A stretch of DNA of 64,000 nt from the NCBI RefSeq assembly GCF_014203735.1, contig NZ_JACHJQ010000006.1, positions 443,698 to 507,697 of the forward strand, written 5' to 3'. Of the stretch, positions 9,561-60,012 are shown piece after piece; positions within the stretch are counted from its first letter, which is position 1, and each line of letters begins with the position of its first letter. Made by a program: the position numbers and the translations under genes. Source of the stretch: Actinophytocola algeriensis (GTDB taxonomy: Bacteria; Actinomycetota; Actinomycetes; Mycobacteriales; Pseudonocardiaceae). The notes beneath the pieces were generated by a model. It had not been told where the DNA came from. It saw only the letters and a program-made list of their open reading frames with translations, and did no database searches.

Positions 9561-10334
9561 ATGCCGCTCCTCCAAGATCTCCTCGCCGCCATCGCGGGCG
9601 GCCGGGTCGAGATCGTCGACCTGACCGCGCCACTGTCCAACGAGACGCCGATCCTGCAGCTGCCGGAGCCGTTCTCGAACACGATCCCGTTCTCGCTGGA
9701 GCTGATCAGCCGCTACGACGACGCAGGGCCCGGCTGGTACTGGAACAACATCCACACCGGTGAGCACACCGGCACGCACGTCGACGCGCCCGTGCACTGG
9801 GCCACCGGCAAGGACGGCGCCGACGTCTCCCAGCTCGCGCTGACCCAGCTCGTCGCGCCCGCCGTCGTGGTCGACGTGTCCGGCCGGGTGGCCGACGACG
9901 CCGACTTCCTGCTGGGCATCGACGACGTGAAGGCGTGGGAGGCCGCGAACGGGCCCCTTCCCGACGGCGCCTGGCTGTTGCTGCGCACCGGCTGGGACGC
10001 ACGGTCGACCGACGCGGGCCGGTTCCTCAACGCCGACGAGAACGGCCCGCACTCCCCCGGCATCTCGGCGGAGTGCGCGCGGTGGCTCGCGGAGGACACC
10101 GGGCTCGTGGGGCTCGGGGTGGAGACGGTCGGCACCGACGCGGGTGCCGCGCACTCGTTCGAGCCCGCTTTCCCGTGTCACCACTACTTCCTGGGCGCCG
10201 GGAAGATGGGGCTGACGCAACTGCGGAACGTCGCGTCGCTGCCGCCGACTGGCGCGGTGCTCGTGGTGTCGCCGCTGCCGATCGTCGGCGGTTCCGGCAG
10301 CCCGGCGCGGGTGTACGCACTGGTCGAGCGGTGA
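9561..10334 (+). CDS. Cyclase-family protein (kynurenine-formamidase-like metal hydrolase)
   Basis: 257 aa from the ATG at 9561. A TTG 21 bp upstream would add a few unsupported residues. The metal-binding motif HxGTHxDxPxH appears as HTGTHVDAPVH near residue 75, with DLTAPLS at the N-terminus and GLGVETVGTD near residue 190, all typical of the cyclase/KynB/isatin hydrolase family. These Zn or Mn enzymes hydrolyse amides and lactones. The stop overlaps the GTG start of the TPP enzyme (GTGA), so the pair is translationally coupled. A hydrolase-plus-decarboxylase pathway for a keto-acid or aryl substrate is plausible but unproven. Confidence 0.88.
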   Translation: MPLLQDLLAAIAGGRVEIVDLTAPLSNETPILQLPEPFSNTIPFSLELISRYDDAGPGWYWNNIHTGEHTGTHVDAPVHWATGKDGADVSQLALTQLVAPAVVVDVSGRVADDADFLLGIDDVKAWEAANGPLPDGAWLLLRTGWDARSTDAGRFLNADENGPHSPGISAECARWLAEDTGLVGLGVETVGTDAGAAHSFEPAFPCHHYFLGAGKMGLTQLRNVASLPPTGAVLVVSPLPIVGGSGSPARVYALVER

Positions 10335-12190
10335 GCGGGCCGCCGGTGTCTGGACCGACGAGCAGCGCAGGAAGCTCGGCCACGAGCGACCGAGCAGCGC
10401 AGGAGGGAAGACACCGGGACAAGGCCCGCGAACACCGAGCGGAGCGAGGCAAGCCGACACTGAGCGGGCCGCCGGTGTCTGGACCGACGAGCAGCGCAGG
10501 GAGCTCGGCCACGAGCGACCGAGCAGCGCAGGAGGGAAGACACCGGGACAAGGCCCGCGAACGCCGAGCGGAGCGAGGCAAGTCGACACTGAGCACGACC
10601 GCGGACCTGGTCGGCGCCACGCTCGCGGAACTCGGTGTGGCGCAGGCGTTCGGGGTGGTCGGCAGCGGCAACTTCGTCGTCACGGGCGCGTTGGTGGCCC
10701 GCGGGGTGCCGTTCGTCGCGGCGCGGCACGAGTGCGGCGCGACCGTGATGGCCGACGCGTACGCGCGGATGAGCGACCGGCTGCCGGTGGTCACGCTGCA
10801 CCAGGGGTGCGGGCTGACCAACGCGCTGACCGGCATCACGGAGGCGGCGAAGAGCCGCACTCCGCTGCTCGTGCTGACCGCCGACACACCCGGTGCGGCG
10901 GTGACCGCGAACTTCCGGATCGACCAGGACGCGGCGATCAGGGCGGTGGGCGCGGTCTCCGAACGCGTCCACTCGCCCGCGTCGGCGGTGGCGGACACCG
11001 TGCGCGCGTACCGGAAAGCCGTGCACGAGCGGCGGACCGTCGTGCTGAACCTGCCGCTGGACGTGCAGGCGGCACCCGCGGTACCCGGCCCGGCGACGGT
11101 GCCCGTGGTGCCGCGACCGGTCCGGCCGGACGCGGACGCCGTGGCCTCGTTGGCGAACGCTCTGCGCGGCGCCCGGCGTCCGGTGTTCGTGGCGGGGCGC
11201 GGCGCCCGGCACGCGGCCGATTCCTTGCGGGCACTCGCGGAGGCCACCGGCGCCCTGCTGGCGACGTCCGCGGTGGCGCACGGGTTGTTCGCCGGCGATC
11301 CGTGGTCGCTGGGGATCTCCGGCGGGTTCGCGTCGCCGCGCACGGCCGCGTTGATCGCCGACGCGGATCTCGTGGTGGGCTGGGGCTGTGCGCTCAACAA
11401 GTGGACGACGAAGCACGGCGCCCTGCTCGGCGCGACCGTCGCGCAGGTCGACCTGGACCCGGCGGCGTTCGGCGCGCACACGCGGGTCGGCCTCGGTGTG
11501 GTCGGGGACGTGGCGTGGACCGCGCGGGACGTGCTCGCCGCGCTCGACGGGTACACACAGGACGGTTACCGCACCGCACCCCTCGGCGAGGTCCGGTGGA
11601 CCCCGCCGGCCGACGAGTCCACCGCGGACCGCATCGACCCTCGGGTGCTGAGCGCGCGACTCGACGCGCTGCTGCCCGCCGCGCGGACCGTGTCGGTGGA
11701 CTCGGGGAACTTCATGGGGTACCCGAGCGCGTACCTGTCGGTGCCCGACGAGTACGGGTTCTGCTTCACACAGGCGTTCCAGTCGATCGGCCTCGGCCTG
11801 GCGACCGCGCTCGGCGCCGCGCTCGCCCGGCCGGACCGGCTGCCGGTCGCGGCACTGGGCGATGGCGGGTTCCTCATGGGGGTCGCCGAGCTGGAAACCG
11901 TGGTGCGACTGGGTATCCCGATGGTGGTGGTCGTGTACGACGACGCCGCGTACGGCGCGGAGATCCACCACTTCGGCAGGGACGCCGACCTGTCGACGGT
12001 CACCTTCCCCGACACCGGCCTCGCGGCGATCGGCGAAGGCTTCGGCTGCGCGGGCCTGACCGTCCGCACGGTCGCCGACCTCGACGGCGTGACCCGGTGG
12101 CTCGACGGTCCCCGCGACCGCCCCCTGCTGGTCGACGCGAAGATCACCGACGACGGCGGCTCGTGGTGGCTGGCGGAGGCGTTCCGGTAG
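10331..12190 (+). CDS. Thiamine-pyrophosphate enzyme (acetolactate-synthase-like) with an 86-residue repeat insert
   Basis: 619 aa from GTG 10331, which overlaps the cyclase stop. Family features begin only after residue ~88: TADLVGATLAELGV, the activating Glu in RHECGATVMADAYAR, a central Rossmann-like domain, and the C-terminal TPP site GDGG with YDDAAYG replacing the usual NNxxYG. Without residues 2-87 the protein would be ~533 aa, normal for acetolactate synthase, benzoylformate decarboxylase or sulfopyruvate decarboxylase relatives. The extra N-terminus is two near-identical 43-residue units encoded by the 129-bp tandem repeat. It is Ser/Ala/Arg-rich and unlikely to fold. The ancestral start was probably the same GTGAGC, now separated from the rest. 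An internal start is possible, but none with a good ribosome site is seen. Confidence 0.87.
   Translation: MSGPPVSGPTSSAGSSATSDRAAQEGRHRDKAREHRAERGKPTLSGPPVSGPTSSAGSSATSDRAAQEGRHRDKARERRAERGKSTLSTTADLVGATLAELGVAQAFGVVGSGNFVVTGALVARGVPFVAARHECGATVMADAYARMSDRLPVVTLHQGCGLTNALTGITEAAKSRTPLLVLTADTPGAAVTANFRIDQDAAIRAVGAVSERVHSPASAVADTVRAYRKAVHERRTVVLNLPLDVQAAPAVPGPATVPVVPRPVRPDADAVASLANALRGARRPVFVAGRGARHAADSLRALAEATGALLATSAVAHGLFAGDPWSLGISGGFASPRTAALIADADLVVGWGCALNKWTTKHGALLGATVAQVDLDPAAFGAHTRVGLGVVGDVAWTARDVLAALDGYTQDGYRTAPLGEVRWTPPADESTADRIDPRVLSARLDALLPAARTVSVDSGNFMGYPSAYLSVPDEYGFCFTQAFQSIGLGLATALGAALARPDRLPVAALGDGGFLMGVAELETVVRLGIPMVVVVYDDAAYGAEIHHFGRDADLSTVTFPDTGLAAIGEGFGCAGLTVRTVADLDGVTRWLDGPRDRPLLVDAKITDDGGSWWLAEAFR
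10332..10589 (+). repeat. Two tandem copies of a 129-bp element inserted in frame at the start of the TPP gene
   Basis: Copies run 10332-10460 and 10461-10589, each opening with TGAGC. A third TGAGC at 10590 resumes the gene, so TGAGC looks like a target duplication. The copies differ at only a few positions (for example aagctc/gagctc, aacacc/aacgcc, agccg/agtcg). Because 129 is a multiple of three and neither strand has a stop in this frame, the TPP reading frame survives. The unit contains GCAGCGCAGGA-type sub-repeats. No coding role is evident and it is probably a mobile intergenic repeat. Confidence 0.9.
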
Positions 12191-45214: not shown

Positions 45215-45359
45215 CTAGTGCTGTGTCCACTTGCGTTGGCCGGGGTGGGTTCGTGGTTTGTCCTCGCCGGACGTCCTCGCCGGGCGGGTTTGCCTCCGGC
45301 GGCTCCTCGCCGGAGGGGCCGCCGCAGGACCCGGCACACGCTGGTGGACACAGCGCTAG
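45215..45359. repeat. 145-bp inverted-repeat element with CTAG ends (family member E1)
   Basis: Starts CTAGTGCTGTGTCCAC at 45215 and ends with the near-complement GTGGACACAGCGCTAG at 45359, with about 19 of 22 outer positions matching. Both outer ends carry CTAG, and the two halves resemble the heads at 48835-48862 and 58797-58822. No ORF is inside. It sits between the divergent XRE and aldo/keto reductase genes, so it may also carry their promoters. Confidence 0.75.
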
Positions 45360-45422
45360 TTTCCTGAGAGGGGCCCTGCCGCGGTCTCCCTCGGCGCGGA
45401 CAGCCGGGTCAGAGTGTCGGTC

Positions 45423-46382
45423 ATGCGTTATCGACTGTTCGGCAGGACCGGCCTGCGCGTCTCGGAACTCCTGCTCGGCACCATGACCCTGCGCGACGAG
45501 CAACAGGCACGGCGAATCCTCGACGTGTACGCCGAGGCGGGCGGCAACGTCCTCGACACCGCGTCGGCGTACGGCGAGAGCGAGGCCGTGCTCGGCGCGG
45601 TCATCGAGCGCCGCGACCGCTTCGTCATCGGCACCAAGTACACGCTGTCCCGCGACGCGGCCGACCCCAACGCGGCCGGCAACCACCGCAAGAACCTCGT
45701 GCTGTCGCTGGAACAGAGCCTGCGCCGCCTGCGCACCGACCACGTCGACATCTTCTGGGTGCACCTGTGGGACCGGCACACGCCCGTCGAGGAGACGATG
45801 CGGGCGCTCGACGACGTGGTGCGGGCGGGCAAGGTGCTGTACGTGGGTGCCTCTGACGCGCCCGCGTGGTTCGTGGCCAGGGCGAACACGCTCGCGGAGT
45901 GGCGGGACTGGACGCCGTTCGCCGGTCTGCAGGTGCCGTACAACCTGCTGCGCCGGGACGTCGAGCGGGAGCTGCTGCCGATGGCGGAGGCCCTGGGGAT
46001 GAGCGTGGCGGCGTGGGCGCCGCTGGCAGCGGGAGTGCTGTCCGGCGGGTCCACCCGGGTCGGTGAGCTGACCCCTCGGGACCAGGCCGCCGCGGCCGCG
46101 GTGCGGAAGGTCGCCGAGGAGCTGGGGGCGACGCCCGCGCAGGTCGCGCTCGCGTGGACCAGGGCGAAGTCACCGGCCGTGCTGCCGCTCGTGGGGGTCA
46201 GCCGGCCCGAGCAGCTGGCCGACAACCTCGGTGCGCTCGACCTCGTGCTGCCCGCAGAAGCGGTCACCGTGCTGGAGTCGGCGGCCGGGTTCGAACGGGG
46301 GTTCCCGGCCGACTTCATCGCCGAGTGCGAGCCGTCGCGGTTCGCGTTCGGGGACGCGGCGACGAAGGTCGTCGGCCGTTAG
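45423..46382 (+). CDS. Aldo/keto reductase
   Basis: 319 aa from ATG 45423. The tetrad is visible: Asp in NVLDTASAYG near residue 42, Tyr in that same AYG, Lys in VIGTKYT near residue 70, and His in FWVHLWD near residue 107. The NADPH phosphate site motif (GVSRPEQL) is near 255. Family members reduce aldehydes and ketones with NADPH. The MmyB-type regulator lies just upstream in the opposite direction and probably senses a related small molecule. The stop overlaps the convergent isomerase-family gene by 4 bp. Confidence 0.92.
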   Translation: MRYRLFGRTGLRVSELLLGTMTLRDEQQARRILDVYAEAGGNVLDTASAYGESEAVLGAVIERRDRFVIGTKYTLSRDAADPNAAGNHRKNLVLSLEQSLRRLRTDHVDIFWVHLWDRHTPVEETMRALDDVVRAGKVLYVGASDAPAWFVARANTLAEWRDWTPFAGLQVPYNLLRRDVERELLPMAEALGMSVAAWAPLAAGVLSGGSTRVGELTPRDQAAAAAVRKVAEELGATPAQVALAWTRAKSPAVLPLVGVSRPEQLADNLGALDLVLPAEAVTVLESAAGFERGFPADFIAECEPSRFAFGDAATKVVGR

Positions 46383-47053: not shown

Positions 47054-47132
47054 GTACATGATCGTAGGTGGCCTGCTGAAATAGTCGTCGGACGACTTGT
47101 CTGCTGCGGATTCAGTTGTGAAGATGGCAGCC

Positions 47133-48566
47133 ATGACCGAGAAGCGTGTTCTGCGGAACTTCGTCGACGGCACCTGGACTGATCCCGCCGACGGTGAGCA
47201 CACCGACGTCGTCGACCCGAGCACCGGGGAGGTGTTCGCGTCCGCGCCGCGGTCCGGTACGGCCGATGTGGACCAGGCCATGCGGGCCGCGGCGCGGGCC
47301 TTCGAGGGCTGGCGGACGACGACGCCCAAGGACCGCCAGCTCGCGATGCTGAAGTTCGCGGACGCGCTCGAGGCCAGGACCGACGAGCTGCTCGACGCCG
47401 AGTGCCAGAACACGGGGAAGCCGCGGCAGCTCACGCTCGAGGAGGAGATGCCGCCCGCGATCGACCACTTCCGGTTCTTCGCCGGCGCGGCCAGGGTGCT
47501 GGAGGGCAAGTCGGCGGGTGAGTACCTGGCCGACCACACCAGTTACGTGCGCCGCGAGCCCATCGGGGTGTGCGCGCAGGTCACGCCGTGGAACTACCCC
47601 CTGATGATGGCCGTGTGGAAGATCGCGCCCGCGCTGGCCGCGGGGAACACGGTGGTGCTGAAGCCGTCCGACACGACACCGCTGTCGACGCTGCTGATGG
47701 CGGAGATCGCGGCGGAGTTCTTCCCGCCCGGTGTGTTCAACGTGCTGTGCGGCGACCGGGACACGGGCCGTGCGCTGGTGTCGCATCCCGTGCCCGCACT
47801 GGTGTCGATCACGGGGTCGGTGCGTGCCGGACGGGAGGTGGCTCAGGCCGCCGCCGCGGATCTCAAGCGAGTGCACCTCGAGCTGGGCGGCAAGGCCCCG
47901 GTCGTGGTGTTCGACGACGCCGACCTCGCGGCGGCCGCGGAGGCGATCGCGGTCGGCGGGTACTTCAACGCCGGACAGGACTGCACCGCCGCGACGCGGG
48001 TGCTCGCGGGGCCCGGGGTGCACGACGAGCTGGTGGCGGAGCTGACCTCGCAGGCCCGGTCCACGCGGACGGGGCCGCCGTCGGATCCGGACGTGTTGTA
48101 CGGGCCGCTGAACAACGCTCGGCAGCTGGAGCGGGTTCGCGGGTTCGTCGACCGGTTGCCTTCGCACGCCTCACTGGAGGCGGGTGGGTCGCAGGTCGGC
48201 TCTCGGGGGTTCTTCTATTCGCCCACGGTGGTTTCCGGGTTGCGGCAGGACGACGAGATCATCCAGGACGAGGTATTCGGGCCGGTGATCACCGTGCAGC
48301 GGTTCTCGTCGGAGGACGAGGCTGTGGCTTGGGCCAACGGGGTCGAGTACGGGCTTGCTTCCTCGGTGTGGACCAAGGACCACAGCCGGGCGATGCGGAT
48401 GACCGCGGCGCTGGATTTCGGGTGCGTGTGGGTGAACACGCACATTCCCTTCATTTCGGAGATGCCGCACGGCGGGTTCAAGCATTCCGGGTACGGCAAG
48501 GATTTGTCGATGTACGGGTTCGAGGACTACACGCGGGTCAAGCACGTGATGCACAACATCGGCTGA
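47133..48566 (+). CDS. Gamma-aminobutyraldehyde/betaine-aldehyde-type dehydrogenase
   Basis: 477 aa from ATG 47133. An in-frame ATG lies 9 bp upstream. Catalytic Cys is in [11 protein letters not shown] near residue 287, Glu in HLELGGKAP near 252, and the NAD+ site is TPWNYPLMM near 153 with SITGSVRAG near 230. The QNTGKPR and [16 protein letters not shown] elements match the 4-aminobutyraldehyde/betaine aldehyde dehydrogenases. With the aminotransferase and polyamine importer nearby it should oxidise 4-aminobutanal from putrescine to GABA. It faces an intergenic repeat block at its 3' end. Confidence 0.9.
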
Positions 48567-48648
48567 GCAGCACACGAATCACCCGATCTACCACGCACGG
48601 CGGCAATCGCAGCGCTGGATCGCTTTCAGGGCGTGGACCCATGTTCAT

Positions 48649-48780
48649 GAAGGGGCCCTTCGTCACATCGGGCGTGACGAAGGGGTCCTTCATCACGGTG
48701 AGCGCAACGAAGGGGTCCTTCATCGCGCCGGACGTTACGAAGGGGTCCTTCATCGCGCCGGAGGTCCTTCATCGCGCCGG
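48649..48780. repeat. 30-bp-period array of GAAGGGGTCCTTC palindromes
   Basis: Four copies of the GAAGGGG(T/C)CCTTC palindrome at 48649, 48679, 48709 and 48739, spaced exactly 30 bp, plus a shortened fifth at 48760 (GGAGGTCCTTC). Each sits in a conserved ~18-bp block. The ~12-bp spacers partly differ. Both strands stay open through it, giving a ten-residue peptide repeat that is not credible as protein. The leading 80 bp after the dehydrogenase stop (48567-48648) hold nothing recognised. Confidence 0.85.
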
Positions 48781-48862
48781 CGACCCACCCCGGTGGGCCG
48801 ATCACCGTCGGCTCGGCCGAACCCACCGGAGGTCCCGGCAAACGTTGGTGGACACAGCGCTA
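48781..48862 (-). repeat. Intergenic head module (family member E2) at the stop of the saccharopine-dehydrogenase-like gene
   Basis: Read on the minus strand it opens with the gene's own stop, TAGCGCTGTGTCCACC, then CAACGTTTGCCGG. The 22 bp at 48835-48856 are identical (inverted) to 58801-58822, and similarity to that copy continues for about 75 bp. The palindrome array at 48649-48780 follows directly. Confidence 0.8.
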
Positions 48863-50050
48863 ACGCATGCCCCACGGGGAGCCGTACTCCGTCAGCAGGT
48901 CCAGGAACGGGACGGCGTCGAAGGCTTCCGGCCCCAGTACTCCGGTGCCGGTCCACGTGCCTGACGCCAGCAACTCCAGTGCTACCACCGGGTTGATCGC
49001 CGTCTGCCAGGCGACTGCCTGGTGGCCGTACTCGCGCATGGACCACTCGTTGTCCACCACGTGGTACAGGTACACCTCTTTCGGGGCCCCGGAAGTGTCC
49101 AGGCCGCGTACCCACGTGCCCGCGCACGTCTTGCCGCGCATCCGAGGGCCCAGGCCCGCCGGGTCGGGGAGGCATGCCGCCACCACGTCGCGCGGGGAGA
49201 CCCGCACGTTGCCCACCTGCACCGGGTCGGCAGAGGAGAGGCCCAGCTTGTGCAGGGTGCGCAGCACCTCGATGAACTCGTTGCCAAGGCCGTACTTGAA
49301 GGTCACGCGGCCGGCTGACACCCAGCGCGGGATCAGCAGTACCTCCTCGTGCTCGACGTTCACGCACTCGACCGGGCCGATGCCCTCCGGGAAGTCGAAC
49401 ACCTCCGGCTCGGAGAACGGTTCTGTCGTGTACCAACCGCGATCGCGTTCCCAGATGACCGGGGGGTTCAGGCATTCCTCGATGGTCGTCCAGATGGAGA
49501 AGGTCGGGGCGAAGGCGTAGCCCTCGACCTCCAGGTTGGCGCCGTCGCGGACGCCGATCTCCTCGATCGAGGAGAACAGGTGGTCCGCGGCGTACCTGGC
49601 GAAGACGTCCGACAGGCCTGGTTCCACGCCGATGCCGACCAGCGCCAGGCGGCCGCGGTCGGTCCACGTCGACTCACGAGCGAACTGGTCGTCGCCCAGT
49701 TTCACGCCCGGCCGGGAGTAGGGGGCCGACTCGTCCGGAGTGGACAGTGACATCGCCATGTCCAGGTAGTCGGCGCCCGCCTCCAGCGCGCCTTCGAAGA
49801 TCGGCATCACGAACCTGGGGTCCACGGCGTTGAACACGTGCGTGATCCCGTGCGCGCGGCACAGCTCCGCCACCGCCGACGACGAGGACGCGTCGACCGT
49901 CGCCGACGTGAAGCGGGCGTCCGGGACGCAGGCGTCCGCTCTGGCCGTCGAGTAGTCCGCGACCACGTACGACTCGAAGAACTCGCGCCTCGCGGCGATG
50001 GCGACCGCCGCCGCGCCCACCGCGCCCGCGCCGATCTGCAGGATCCTCAT
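48860..50050 (-). CDS. Saccharopine-dehydrogenase-family oxidoreductase
   Basis: 396 aa from ATG 50050 with a GAGGGGG ribosome site. Rossmann start MRILQIGAGAVGAAAVAIA, then VVADYSTARAD (NAD adenine end), HVFNAVDPRFVMPIFEGAL and a long C-terminal half with no SPDH alpha-helical extension. Family members act on saccharopine or other amino-acid imines and may handle cyclic imines formed during polyamine or lysine breakdown. It is the last gene of the importer operon. Its stop codon TAG is the first three bases of the repeat head E2. Confidence 0.85.
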   Translation of the reverse strand: MRILQIGAGAVGAAAVAIAARREFFESYVVADYSTARADACVPDARFTSATVDASSSSAVAELCRAHGITHVFNAVDPRFVMPIFEGALEAGADYLDMAMSLSTPDESAPYSRPGVKLGDDQFARESTWTDRGRLALVGIGVEPGLSDVFARYAADHLFSSIEEIGVRDGANLEVEGYAFAPTFSIWTTIEECLNPPVIWERDRGWYTTEPFSEPEVFDFPEGIGPVECVNVEHEEVLLIPRWVSAGRVTFKYGLGNEFIEVLRTLHKLGLSSADPVQVGNVRVSPRDVVAACLPDPAGLGPRMRGKTCAGTWVRGLDTSGAPKEVYLYHVVDNEWSMREYGHQAVAWQTAINPVVALELLASGTWTGTGVLGPEAFDAVPFLDLLTEYGSPWGMR

Positions 50051-50099
50051 GACGCCCCCTCGCCCGCTCCGTGGCACCGGACCGCTCCGCAAGCTCCGC

Positions 50100-54247: not shown

Positions 54248-54393
54248 ACTTACGGCCGTAACACGGGAGCTGAACGACGTAGCGGGCGCCGTCTGGACTG
54301 AGGAGCGCGCACAGGCGCGCCAGCGCCGAGCACGCGACGAGGGAAGACCGCGTGGTAGCGGAGGGTGAAGCGACCCATGACACGGAGGGCTGA

Positions 54394-56276: not shown

Positions 56277-57137
56277 TCAGATCAGGGCGGCGCACGCCTT
56301 GGACGCGAAGCGCGCGACCCACGACCTTTCCTTGCGCCGGGCGGAAAGCGGCAGTGGCACGCGGTCACCCGCCGCCAGAGCACCCAGCATGGCGGAGCAC
56401 GCCGCGGCGTCCGACCGCTCGCGCGGCTCGGTCGCGGTCATCGCGGTGAGCACCGCACGCCAGTCCCTCCCCCACGTGCCGGGCACCTTCGGCGGGTGGG
56501 CGAGCCGGGCCATCGCGGCCGCCGGGCCATCGCCCGGGTACTCGACCTGCCCGGTCATGCACTCCAGCAGCACCAGCCCGAGCGCGTACACGTCGACGGC
56601 CGGGCCGATCTCGCCGCGCCCCACCTGCTCCGGCGCGAGATAACCGGCGGTGCCGAGGAAGTCCGACACGGGACGGTCGTCGAGGCGCGCGATGCCGAAG
56701 TCGGCCAGGTAGCACTCACCCTCGGCGTCGAAGAGCAGGTTCTCGGGCTTGACGTCCCGGTGCACGATGCCCTGACTGTGCACATAGGCCAGCACGGACG
56801 CGACGGCGGCGCCGATCTCGGCGACCCGGTCGGCCTGCATCGGTCCCACTTCGAGCCGGTCGCGCAGCGTGCCCCCGGACGCGAGCTGCAGCACGAGGAA
56901 CGGCCGCTGCCCTTCGAAGCCGATGTCGTAGAGCCGCAACAGCCCGGGATGGGACAGTCCGGCGATGACCTCGGCCTCCTCGATGAGACGCTGACGGCGC
57001 CGGGTGGTGCGGCACCGCTTGAGCGCGACGGGTCGCCGGAGCCGGAGGTCACGAGCCTCGAACACATCGGCCATGCCGCCCCCGCCGAGCCTGGGGCCCA
57101 GCCGGTAGCGGTGGTCGATGATCGGGTTCGTGGACAT
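56277..57137 (-). CDS. Soluble Ser/Thr protein kinase
   Basis: 286 aa from ATG 57137 (CGGAG just upstream). The kinase domain fills the protein: glycine loop GGGGMADVFEA near 16, VALKRC near 35, HRDVKPENLL near 126, DFGIAR near 146, TAGYLAPEQ near 162 and the C-lobe to ~265. The short C-terminus (RSWVARFASKACAALI) is not long enough for the transmembrane/PASTA extension of PknB-type receptors, so this is a cytoplasmic eukaryotic-like kinase. It converges on the aminotransferase gene with a 4-bp gap. Confidence 0.93.
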   Translation of the reverse strand: MSTNPIIDHRYRLGPRLGGGGMADVFEARDLRLRRPVALKRCRTTRRRQRLIEEAEVIAGLSHPGLLRLYDIGFEGQRPFLVLQLASGGTLRDRLEVGPMQADRVAEIGAAVASVLAYVHSQGIVHRDVKPENLLFDAEGECYLADFGIARLDDRPVSDFLGTAGYLAPEQVGRGEIGPAVDVYALGLVLLECMTGQVEYPGDGPAAAMARLAHPPKVPGTWGRDWRAVLTAMTATEPRERSDAAACSAMLGALAAGDRVPLPLSARRKERSWVARFASKACAALI

Positions 57138-57218
57138 GATCTCCGGATACCCGGGGTCGCCACGTGGAAACCTGCCAGGTGCGGGTACCCGCACTTACAA
57201 CACAAGGAGGCGCTGGTC

Positions 57219-58799
57219 ATGGAGGAGTTCGACGCGGTAGTGGTCGGCGCCGGGCACAACGGGCTGGTGGCCGCGAACATGCTCGCGGACGCGGGCTGGC
57301 GCGTGCTCGTCTGCGAGGCGACCGACGCGCCCGGCGGCGCGGTGGCGTCCGCCGAACTGACCGCGCCCGGGTACATCTCCGACCTGTGCAGCGCGTTCTA
57401 CCCGCTCGCCGCGACCTCCCCCGCGCTGCTGCGGCTGGGACTGGAGGAGCACGGGTTGCGGTGGCGGCACGCGCCGTCCGTGCTCGCGCACGTGTTCCCC
57501 GACGGCAGGAACGTCGTGCTGTCCAGGGATCTCGAGGAGACGGCGAAGGCGGTGGGGGAGTTCGCGGCCGCCGACGCCGACGCGTGGCACGCGGAGTTCG
57601 CCTACTGGCAACGAATCCGGGACGACGTGCTCGACGCGATCCTGTCGCCGTTCCCGCCGGTCCGCGCCGGGGCACGGCTCGCCAGGCGGCTGGGGCCCGC
57701 CGAGATGCTGCGGTTCGCGCGCAGGGCGGTGATGCCGGTGCGGACGATGACCAGGGAACGGTTCGCCGGTGACGGTGCACGCGCGTTGTTCGCGGGCAGC
57801 GCGATGCACACCGACCTCGGCCCGGACCAGGCTGGTTCGGGGATCTTCGGGTGGCTGCTCACGATGCTGGGCCAGGAGGTCGGGTTCCCGGTGCCGGAAG
57901 GCGGCGCGGGACAGATCACGGCGGCGCTGGTACGTCGGCTGTCCACTCGGGACGCACGGGTGGACTGCGGGCGACCGGTCACGTCGCTGGTCGTCGGGAA
58001 CGGGGAGGTGCTCGGGGTGTGGGACGCGGAGGGGCAGGTGGTGCGGGCGCGGCGGGCGGTGCTCGCGGACGTGCCCGCGCCGGTGCTGTACCGGGACCTG
58101 GTCGGCGAGTCGCACCTGCCCGCCCGGCTCGTGGCCGACCTCGACAGCTTCCACTGGGACGACGCGACGATCAAGGTGGACTGGGCGCTGTCCGGTCCGG
58201 TCCCGTGGTCGGCGCCTGCTGTGCGCGGCGCCGGCACCGTGCACATGGGCGCGGACCTCGACGGGCTCGCCGGGGTCGCGAACGACCTCGCGTGCGGCCG
58301 CGTGCCGCGCGACCCGTTCCTGTTGCTCGGGCAGATGACGACGGCCGACCCGTCGCGGTCACCGGCCGGCACGGAGTCGGTGTGGGCGTACACGCACGTG
58401 CCGCGGGGTGAGAGGTGGTCGCCGTCGCGGCTGAAGCGGCGCGCGGACCGGATCGAGCAGGTGATCGAGGACCAGGCGCCCGGCTTCCGGTCGCTGATCG
58501 CCGGCCGGGCGATCGCGGGCCCCGCCGAGCTGGCGGAACACAACCCGAGCCTGGTCGAGGGCGCGATCAACGCGGGCACGTCCGCGATCCACCAGCAGCT
58601 GGTGTTCCGCCCGGTCCCGGGCCTCGGCCGCGCGGACACGGTGATCGACCGGCTGTTCCTGGCAGGCGCGTCGGCCCATCCCGGCGGCGGCGTGCACGGC
58701 GCCGCGGGCGCGAACGCGGCGAAGGCGGCACTGGCCCGCGACAAGGTCCCCGGCTACCACGGTCTCGTCTCGGCAGCCCACAAAATGCTCTACCGCTAG
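57219..58799 (+). CDS. FAD-dependent phytoene-desaturase-like oxidoreductase
   Basis: 526 aa, ATG with an AAGGAGG ribosome site. FAD motif VVVGAGHNGLVAANMLADAG at residues 7-26, ECATDAPGG-like continuation (CEATDAPGG), and the C-terminal GGGVHGAAGANAA motif that closes the FAD site in the CrtI/phytoene desaturase superfamily. Such proteins oxidise carotenoids, retinoids or amino acids. No carotenoid genes are nearby, so the substrate is open. The stop codon TAG (58797-58799) is also the start of the intergenic head E3. Confidence 0.9.
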   Translation: MEEFDAVVVGAGHNGLVAANMLADAGWRVLVCEATDAPGGAVASAELTAPGYISDLCSAFYPLAATSPALLRLGLEEHGLRWRHAPSVLAHVFPDGRNVVLSRDLEETAKAVGEFAAADADAWHAEFAYWQRIRDDVLDAILSPFPPVRAGARLARRLGPAEMLRFARRAVMPVRTMTRERFAGDGARALFAGSAMHTDLGPDQAGSGIFGWLLTMLGQEVGFPVPEGGAGQITAALVRRLSTRDARVDCGRPVTSLVVGNGEVLGVWDAEGQVVRARRAVLADVPAPVLYRDLVGESHLPARLVADLDSFHWDDATIKVDWALSGPVPWSAPAVRGAGTVHMGADLDGLAGVANDLACGRVPRDPFLLLGQMTTADPSRSPAGTESVWAYTHVPRGERWSPSRLKRRADRIEQVIEDQAPGFRSLIAGRAIAGPAELAEHNPSLVEGAINAGTSAIHQQLVFRPVPGLGRADTVIDRLFLAGASAHPGGGVHGAAGANAAKAALARDKVPGYHGLVSAAHKMLYR

Positions 58800-59095
58800 C
58801 TGTGTCCACCAACGTTTGCCGGTCCTGCGGCGGGTCCGGCAAAGCCAAGGTGATCGCCGTGCCGGGGGTGGGGCTGGGTTTGCCGTGAAAGGCGCGTTCA
58901 GGACATCGCCGGTGTTGTGAAAGGCGCGTTGAGGGCGTTGAGTGCCCTGAAAGCGCCTTTCACAGCGTGGCCAGTGCCGTGAAAGCGCCTTTCACAGCCG
59001 GCAGGACGCCCGTCCGGCGAGGACACACCACCCCGTGCTGAACGTCCGACGAGGACAACCCCGTCAATCCCCAACCCAACATGCGGACACAGCGC
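58800..59095. repeat. Composite intergenic repeat (E3): head, palindrome array, second head
   Basis: It opens with TGTGTCCACCAACG at 58801 (stop TAG just before it), a copy of the E2 head, and closes with GGACACAGCGCTCA at 59083-59098, where TCA is the stop of the opposing gene. In between lie the 32-bp palindrome array (58885-58995) and, at 59008-59038, the GCCCGTCCGGCGAGGACA segment shared with 16670-16700. No ORF worth calling. Both outer ends therefore coincide with stop codons of the convergent genes. Confidence 0.8.
58885..58995. repeat. 32-bp-period array of GTGAAAGGCGC palindromes
   Basis: Units at 58885 and 58917 (GTGAAAGGCGCGTT) and inverted units at 58947 and 58979 (ending AGCGCCTTTCAC). 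Spacing is 32, 30 and 32 bp. Unit 4 is itself a palindrome, GTGAAAGCGCCTTTCAC. The set could fold as one large hairpin or as four small ones. Confidence 0.8.
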
Positions 59096-59539
59096 TCAGC
59101 GACCCGCGCCCGCCAGTGCCAGGTCCGCGAGCCGGGACAGCGACTCGCGGTTGCGCGGGATCAGCATGACCGCCTGCACCGCTTTCGGCAGGACCTTCAA
59201 CGGACCGCGCACGACCTGCTCGGACATGAGGACCTTGGTGCGGCCCTCGTCGACCCGTGACAGCTCGATGCGGACGCGGGCCACGCCCATCGGCCACGCG
59301 CGCGCGTCCAGCTCGATGAACCGGCCCGGTTCGACATCGACGACCTCGGTCGTGTCGCTCACCGTCAGCGGCCACAGCCCGACGCTGTGGTGGATGCGGT
59401 TGCCGGTCCCCGGCCAGCCCTGGTCGACGGCCCGCACGTGCGACGCGCCCACCACCCACCCCGCGTACGTCCAGCCCTCGGCCAGCACCGCCCACACCTG
59501 CTCCAGCGGTGCGTCGATCTCCGCGGTCACATCGATCAT
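59096..59539 (-). CDS. SRPBCC-family (polyketide cyclase-like) protein
   Basis: 147 aa from ATG 59539 (MIDVTAEIDAPLEQVWAVL). Classic START/Bet v1 opening (DAPLEQVWAVLAEG), internal strand pattern (TRVE-like EVVDVEPGRFIELDARAW) and a long C-terminal helix (LSRLADLALAGAG). These hold a hydrophobic ligand in a helix-grip pocket. The single domain suggests ligand transport or a small cyclase step. Last gene of the signalling run, 59 bp after the NlpC-like gene. Its stop is the edge of repeat E3. Confidence 0.87.
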   Translation of the reverse strand: MIDVTAEIDAPLEQVWAVLAEGWTYAGWVVGASHVRAVDQGWPGTGNRIHHSVGLWPLTVSDTTEVVDVEPGRFIELDARAWPMGVARVRIELSRVDEGRTKVLMSEQVVRGPLKVLPKAVQAVMLIPRNRESLSRLADLALAGAGR

Positions 59540-59598
59540 GGGTAACGCCTCCCCGGGTCGGAGCCCTTCTGATACCCCGCCCGAGCCAGGGCAAACGG

Positions 59599-60012
59599 TC
59601 AGGACCGGGAGGTCACCCGCTTGTAGCCGACCAGCTCGCGGTAGCTGGGGCGCGCGGCGAACTGCGCGAGGTGCCACAGCGCGGGCCGCGCGGTCTCCGC
59701 GCACAGGTGCAGCACCCGGCCGTCATCCGCCCACACACCGACGTGTGCGCCCCACGGGTCGTTCGACGAGTTCACCAGCACGAGGTCGAGCGGACGCGGC
59801 ACCGCCACCCGCTGTGTCGACTCGGAGTCGTCCCACAGCTCGCTCGACCGCAGGTCCGGCGGGTCGTACCCGAAGTGCCGCAGCACCTCGTACGCGAACA
59901 GCTGGCAGTTCGCGCCGTCCGCGAGCCCGGGACTGGCCAGCACGGCTGGCGAGCCCGGGTAGCGGGCGCCGACATACCGGACCTCCCAGAAGGAGTCCGG
60001 CAGCTCGATCAT
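59599..60012 (-). CDS. NlpC/P60-like cysteine hydrolase
   Basis: 137 aa. Cys36 in [15 protein letters not shown] and His90 in PWGAHVGVW, with a further polar residue around RVLHL, have the order and spacing of NlpC/P60 papain-like hydrolases, which usually cut peptidoglycan cross-links. There is no signal peptide, so if active it works inside the cell or on another amide. Translationally coupled to the response regulator gene (ATGA, 60009-60012), an unusual place for a cell-wall-type hydrolase. Confidence 0.65.

Follow-up and report, generated by a model that had tools for sequence, protein, structure and literature searches.

The palindrome regions at 48.6 and 58.8 kb of the window (the whole stretch of 64,000 nucleotides analysed here) share a common head, and this head is, very probably, the left-end region common to a family of IS630/Tc1-mariner MITEs, which is the best explanation of the data as a whole. 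The headed elements belong to a known kind, the IS630-linked MITE, of which they are a new family. The ends of these elements, their pairing, their copy number and the independence of the palindrome arrays were observed directly. So were empty sites and, in the same genome, an IS630 copy whose ends are like theirs; together with the TIRs and the TA target, these two support the mobile (MITE) role suggested in a preliminary description of this DNA.

Headed elements in the window

A 23-mer, CTGTGTCCACCAACGTTTGCCGG, is identical at positions 48835-48857 (minus strand) and 58800-58822 (plus strand) and had no matches in 100 shuffles, while the likeness of the two heads spans about 75-80 bp, in agreement with the identical 22 bp and the similarity over about 75 bp first reported. 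A third copy, with two mismatches, lies at 45331-45353 (minus strand). Behind the 48.6-kb head, four GAAGGGGYCCTTC palindromes lie at 48649, 48679, 48709 and 48739, with the period of 30 bp already recognized. At 58.8 kb, copies of GTGAAAGGCGC lie at 58885 and 58917 (plus) and at 58950 and 58982 (minus). The 32-bp array described there is thus right as to spacing (32-33 bp) but not as to arrangement, since two forward and two inverted copies build one nested hairpin and no head-to-tail array. Hereafter, GTGAAAGGCGC is referred to as the A type and GAAGGGG (GAAGGGGTCCTTC) as the B type. Folding of both palindrome regions, correctly anticipated to be strong, surpasses that of every dinucleotide shuffle (z -7.5 and -5.4), and Rfam 15 gave no match above the gathering score across the window. 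The called genes around the arrays end at 48566 and 58799 on the plus strand and at 48860 and 59096 on the minus strand (Table 1). The 58.8-kb MITE begins at the G of a TAG stop codon, its right end adjoins the stop codon of a minus-strand gene and its junctions are partly decayed; no far TIR was found for the 48.6-kb element.

Table 1. Elements of the window, their parts and the genes beside them.
Feature	Position	Strand	Remark
Third, short MITE (139 bp)	45218..45356	-	both TIRs, TA on each side; upstream of the aldo/keto reductase gene
Aldo/keto reductase family gene	45414..46382	+	flanking
Aldehyde dehydrogenase gene (Pfam Aldedh)	47097..48566	+	flanking
B-type array, GAAGGGGYCCTTC palindromes, 30-bp period	48649..48780	-	joins the head inside the B linker
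Head, about 80 bp, very probable left end of the MITE family	48781..48860	-	
TIR of the 48.6-kb element	48848..48860	-	GCGCTGTGTCCAC read inwards; same end in paired elements
Target-site TA	48861..48862	.	with the element's first G (48860), forms the TAG stop of the minus-strand gene
Saccharopine dehydrogenase family gene	48860..50092	-	stop codon at element junction
Flavin amine oxidoreductase family gene	56496..58799	+	stop codon TAG at element junction
MITE with both ends	58799..59095	+	left GCTGTGTCC, right GGACACAGCGC
A-type nested hairpin, two GTGAAAGGCGC forward and two inverted	58885..58995	+	
Polyketide cyclase/dehydrase family gene	59096..59704	-	flanking

Copies, ends and layout in the genome

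The genome searched comprises 9.7 Mb in 23 contigs (C1, C2 and so on). A pattern made of the first 18 head bases gave 66 matches with at most three mismatches, versus two for the reversed control; the head is therefore repeated elsewhere in the genome, as the preliminary description had proposed to verify. A far-end pattern gave 92 matches versus 14 in its control, many of them again head ends, and because this pattern contains CTAG, the single-end target statistics given below rest on the 66 head-pattern ends. Once merged, both lists comprise 113 ends, including some chance matches inside genes, 56 of which pair into 28 elements whose inverted ends are close to GTGCTGTGTCCAC, a copy count that may be low as the assembly may break at repeats. 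MITE ends were also seen within about 350 bp of the ends of contigs C3, C9, C11, C14 and C19.

The paired elements are 43-955 bp long (median 342.5 bp) and follow a common layout: TA, GTGCTGTGTCCACC, a head of about 80 bp, usually a hairpin, further modules, GTGGACACAGCAC and TA. Among 19 near-full copies, the median pairwise identity is 87% and the best 93%, so the family is not a fresh burst. With up to two mismatches, the head was present in a single one of 150 genomes, its own; an exact scan of a collection of named genomes, from which the own genome is possibly absent, returned none; and a full-element query gave matches of 30-53 bp only, in three of five other genomes of the same genus. 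Spread between species was thus not seen. Some elements (L061, L014, L103, L145 and L149) also carry a further inverted repeat, CATCCCGTCGACCT...GATCAC... with its reverse, which occurs in the same-genus genome G004 as well and looks like another nested element.

Target site and empty sites

A TA adjoins 50 of the 66 head-pattern ends and CTAG is found at 38, the flank lying outside the search pattern and no ends having been dropped; the 16 ends that have no TA are read as decay or chance matches. In several elements, the bases beyond the TA are not the same left and right (for example, TTAG at one end and CTAG at the other), a difference explained by TA duplication in a CTAG-like target. A 4-bp target duplication was considered and set aside since the left and right flanks of these elements differ.

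Eight sites were searched in 37 genomes with their flanks joined and ten were compared with fetched loci. Five alignments reached or crossed the junction, and the others, which stopped short of it or started beyond it, are uninformative on the target. The search for empty sites in relatives, recommended at the outset, was rewarded twice: in G001, a genome of the same genus, the sites corresponding to C5:255480 and C7:205645 are empty and read uninterruptedly CCTAGTCGTC and GCCTAGCGGTC, each with a single CTAG. Together with the TA present on both sides of 21 of the 28 paired elements, these two sites show insertion at TA with a 2-bp duplication. At the C11:71504 site, the gene of G002 ends with GGGGCTAG. 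Two alignments fit less well, namely C5:255480 in G002, where the site is empty but reads CTCAG with no CTAG, and C6:871903 in G001, which has TGA. The site of the 48.6-kb element contains no TIR, A-type or B-type motif in G002 and G004, and is divided between two contigs in G005. That of the 58.8-kb element has no TIR or B-type motif in G001 (two copies), G002 and G005, with one lone A-like word in G001.

A candidate source of the IS630 type

The same genome contains, within C5:616630-619630 (L084), an IS630-type element of 1239 bp located between CTA and TAG, which is longer than any of the paired elements. Its ORF matches Pfam DDE_3 (1.3e-16) along with two HTH families, and 21-24 of the 27 bases of its ends are identical to those of the MITE ends, so that the TIRs of the 28 paired elements match those of a related IS. 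We infer that the MITEs were mobilised in trans by a transposase of the IS630 type, which would put them into the TA of CTAG-like sites.

Among relatives of the L084 transposase in named genomes, 80 of 501 were fetched, the closest of these being 87% identical and found in Amycolatopsis vastitatis. Inverted ends of the GTGC type beside TA were found at 20 of 81 loci (L084 included; one has ATGC on one side), in Actinoplanes, Dactylosporangium, Micromonospora, Winogradskya, Streptomyces and others, five of these 20 loci coming from a single Streptomyces genome. A C precedes the TA at all 19 loci with a readable left flank and TAG stands on the right at 19 of the 20; since TA at either end and an initial G at the left end were conditions of the search, independent evidence comes only from the outer C and G. 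Within the distance searched, no GTGC-type pair was found at the remaining 61 loci, five of which had an inverted pair of another kind.

This association between a MITE and a resident IS is reminiscent of RUP from S. pneumoniae which, in the excerpts of PMC2229807 and PMC3049150 considered here, is a non-autonomous MITE proposed to be mobilised by IS630-Spn1, with TIRs like those of the resident IS630, a TA target and about 110 copies. The present family likewise has TIRs resembling those of a resident IS630 and a TA target, and is probably non-autonomous as well. However, as portrayed in these excerpts, RUP is about 107 bp long and AT-rich, whereas the family described here ranges from 43 to 955 bp in a GC-rich genome, mostly with a long nested hairpin and often exactly on TAG stops. 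For the IS630 family itself, duplication of TA upon insertion is reported in part of PMC2170065, and a preference for the TA in CTAG appears in the title of a paper cited there (Tenzen and Ohtsubo, 1991). Both properties recur here; relative to these sources, the difference is that the present case concerns a MITE family, in an actinomycete, where the scarcity of CTAG makes siting at stop codons frequent.

Siting at stop codons

The exact stop codon of an ORF running into the element (at least 80 codons, GC3 of at least 0.8) is located at 39 of the 113 ends, no ends having been dropped. Four elements (C6:352677, C6:792561, C11:71504 and C13:157201) have stop codons at both ends, in line with what a single CTAG shared by two convergent genes would produce. 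The first base of the element is G, sometimes or rarely A, and insertion into TA(G) consequently leaves TAG (or TAA). Where an element enters a stop codon between the TA and the G, the gene on that side would thereby keep a working TAG, as would both genes of a convergent pair that share the CTAG.

To put this siting in context, a background of 464 kb (20 regions of 20 kb and the window; 80% called coding) contains 91 CTAG sites unrelated to MITEs. Stop codons account for 32 of them and other intergenic positions for 42, and only 17 lie within genes. The window has nine CTAG, versus 175 predicted from base composition. The tetranucleotide is rare within the genes of this GC-rich genome and common at TAG stops, and its scarcity, added to the preference for CTAG, leads to frequent siting at stop codons. 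Counted per site, a stop codon lies on at least one side of 14 of the 28 paired elements versus 32 of the 91 background sites (p 0.19, with slightly different gene criteria); counted per strand, 39 of 86 TA ends are at stops versus 14 of 70 CTAG in flanking DNA. The preference for CTAG explains most of the siting, and a modest excess of stop codons beyond it may exist, the difference being non-significant per site and looking larger per strand. Regeneration of the stop would place the elements between genes at little cost, and such insertions are probably harmless to the protein. A transposase preference and genome composition can jointly open up a low-cost niche for a transposon where genes end. 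In the open-licence literature, searched by means other than the palindrome letters themselves, we found no description of stop siting via a CTAG preference, of IS630 MITEs located at stop codons or of these palindromes.

Hairpins and gene ends

Their location raises the possibility that the elements are portable bidirectional terminators or 3'-end stabilisers, selected at gene ends, a reading which we consider unlikely although it fares best among the alternatives to a MITE family. The strong folding of both regions and the frequent placement at stop codons favor it, as do two-unit GAAGG hairpins with self-complementary linkers, which lie between convergent genes at 8 of 20 loci from five relatives. 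However, no terminator-like site with a T run is present: a search for intrinsic terminators (GC-rich stem followed by a T run) returned no sites at 48500-49000 and 58700-59200. Moreover, 22 A-type hairpins, kept from 49 by length and motif, show over 877 pair cells no both-side changes, versus 0.3 in shuffles, and 24 broken pairs, versus 21.8, that is, pairing kept no better than chance, in a test that the low variation makes weak. The looser set of 49 stretches, which includes unrelated ones, yielded no consensus fold. Gene orientation around the 28 paired MITEs is also mixed (6 convergent, 4 divergent, 3 tandem and 15 unclear). A role of the MITE hairpins as terminators or at 3' ends is unproven, and the elements may affect transcription. 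According to the part of PMC3049150 that deals with it, SPRITE from S. pneumoniae is a terminator-like repeat near convergent 3' ends with a U-rich tract; the elements described here are comparable as hairpin repeats at gene ends, but differ from SPRITE, as presented there, in that no T-run terminator was found. Hairpin clusters as terminators are the subject of PMC8355165, as far as its excerpt indicates.

The GAAGG hairpins extend beyond this genome. Two-unit forms were found in 9 of 120 genomes searched, the own genome included. The 20 loci from the five relatives comprise, besides the convergent ones, 2 tandem and 10 unclear cases, and among the 20 B arrays of the own genome, orientation was callable in three, all convergent. 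Their linkers are self-complementary at 5.5-7.7 of 8 pairs in the relatives and 4.4 in the own genome, versus about 2.1 when shuffled. Hairpins of the form GAAGGRNYCCTTC-N17-GAAGGRNYCCTTC (L285-L304) were observed in several genera, frequently where convergent genes end, and have genus-specific self-complementary linkers. This wider family may have a function even should the MITE copies have none and, as a separate set of hairpins near gene ends in related genera, is worth its own study.

A bolder proposal, to which we give somewhat less credence than to selected terminators, is that the MITE end regenerates the stop codon in which it lands and so spares the proteins, also where convergent genes share a CTAG, and at the same time brings in host-type hairpins by which transcripts are ended or shielded. 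If true, a transposon would be editing 3' untranslated regions genome-wide, alongside the older GAAGG hairpins found at gene ends in related genera.

Palindrome arrays and the head

The preliminary description had interpreted the head as the constant part of a cassette system in which the array varies. A conserved head serving as a platform for loading or exchanging different palindrome arrays would account for the two near-identical heads of the window, which precede two array types, and for one 955-bp element bounded by TIRs (C2:375577-376531) that contains both types. A census of the headed copies makes this very improbable. Among 69 copies, 51 have the A type only, 15 neither type, two both types and one, the 48.6-kb copy of the window, GAAGGGGTCCTTC only; the situation that had been named in advance as fatal to the cassette, the same array behind every head, is therefore nearly reached. 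Six ends judged to be chance matches were left out, two of which (C1:411691 and C5:274067) may be genuine decayed heads that leave the picture unaffected, and partnerless ends were read over 450 bp inwards, possibly past the end of the element. Any GAAGGGG-type match is thus limited to three of the 69 copies, only one of which lacks the A type, and in one of the three it is a single match within an A-type stretch. In the 955-bp element, the B-type repeat sits between both TIRs, and this copy therefore looks nested. Conversely, the head is absent from all 20 sampled GAAGGGG arrays (1.8-2 kb fetched for each; a non-random sample, with 14 on contig C1). The cassette plan is rejected by the census, the array type not being freely variable behind the head.

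The GAAGGGG arrays form a second repeat family, independent of the first, with 204 adjacent pairs genome-wide. By eye, B repeats carry their own flanking modules and show no regular CTAG-bounded or inverted ends at those loci whose extent could be measured (19 of 20); one sampled locus, L115, has a TIR-like word with two mismatches. Most members of the MITE family bear one long nested hairpin of the GTGAAAGGCGC type. The 48.6-kb copy matches the standard head as far as ACCGGGGTGGG, from where it continues into the B linker CCGGCGCGATGAAGGACC, and on its far side it looks like the decayed end of a B repeat. It is best read as a chimera, most simply formed by a deletion or recombination that would have fused the head to a neighboring B array. 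The modularity perceived at first persists in another form: the module CAGAGACCTGCCCCTCCGGCGAGGAG, with 115 genomic matches (at most three mismatches), is common to many MITEs and B loci (18 of the 28 paired elements and 13 of the 20 GAAGGGG loci); what they share is not the head. BOX from S. pneumoniae, for which the relevant portion of PMC3049150 describes boxA, boxB and boxC modules and a varying number of internal units, is similar as a modular repeat; here, by contrast, the apparent modularity stems from two repeat families joined or nested.

Least probable of all is a spread of the palindromes, as in REP/BIME, by a RAYT (Y1 transposase), which their regular spacing and high copy number would suit, but which was rejected because Y1_Tnp (PF01797) has no match in the own genome (5 of 14 control genomes were positive), the headed elements showing TIRs and a TA target instead.

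Other repeats of the window

At 54267-54388, the window contains an interspersed repeat of about 100 bp, with matches of 81-92% at several places in all five other genomes of the same genus. At 10332-10594, a 129-bp unit is present in two tandem copies (97%) and, by eye, resembles the 54267-54388 repeat in its wording.
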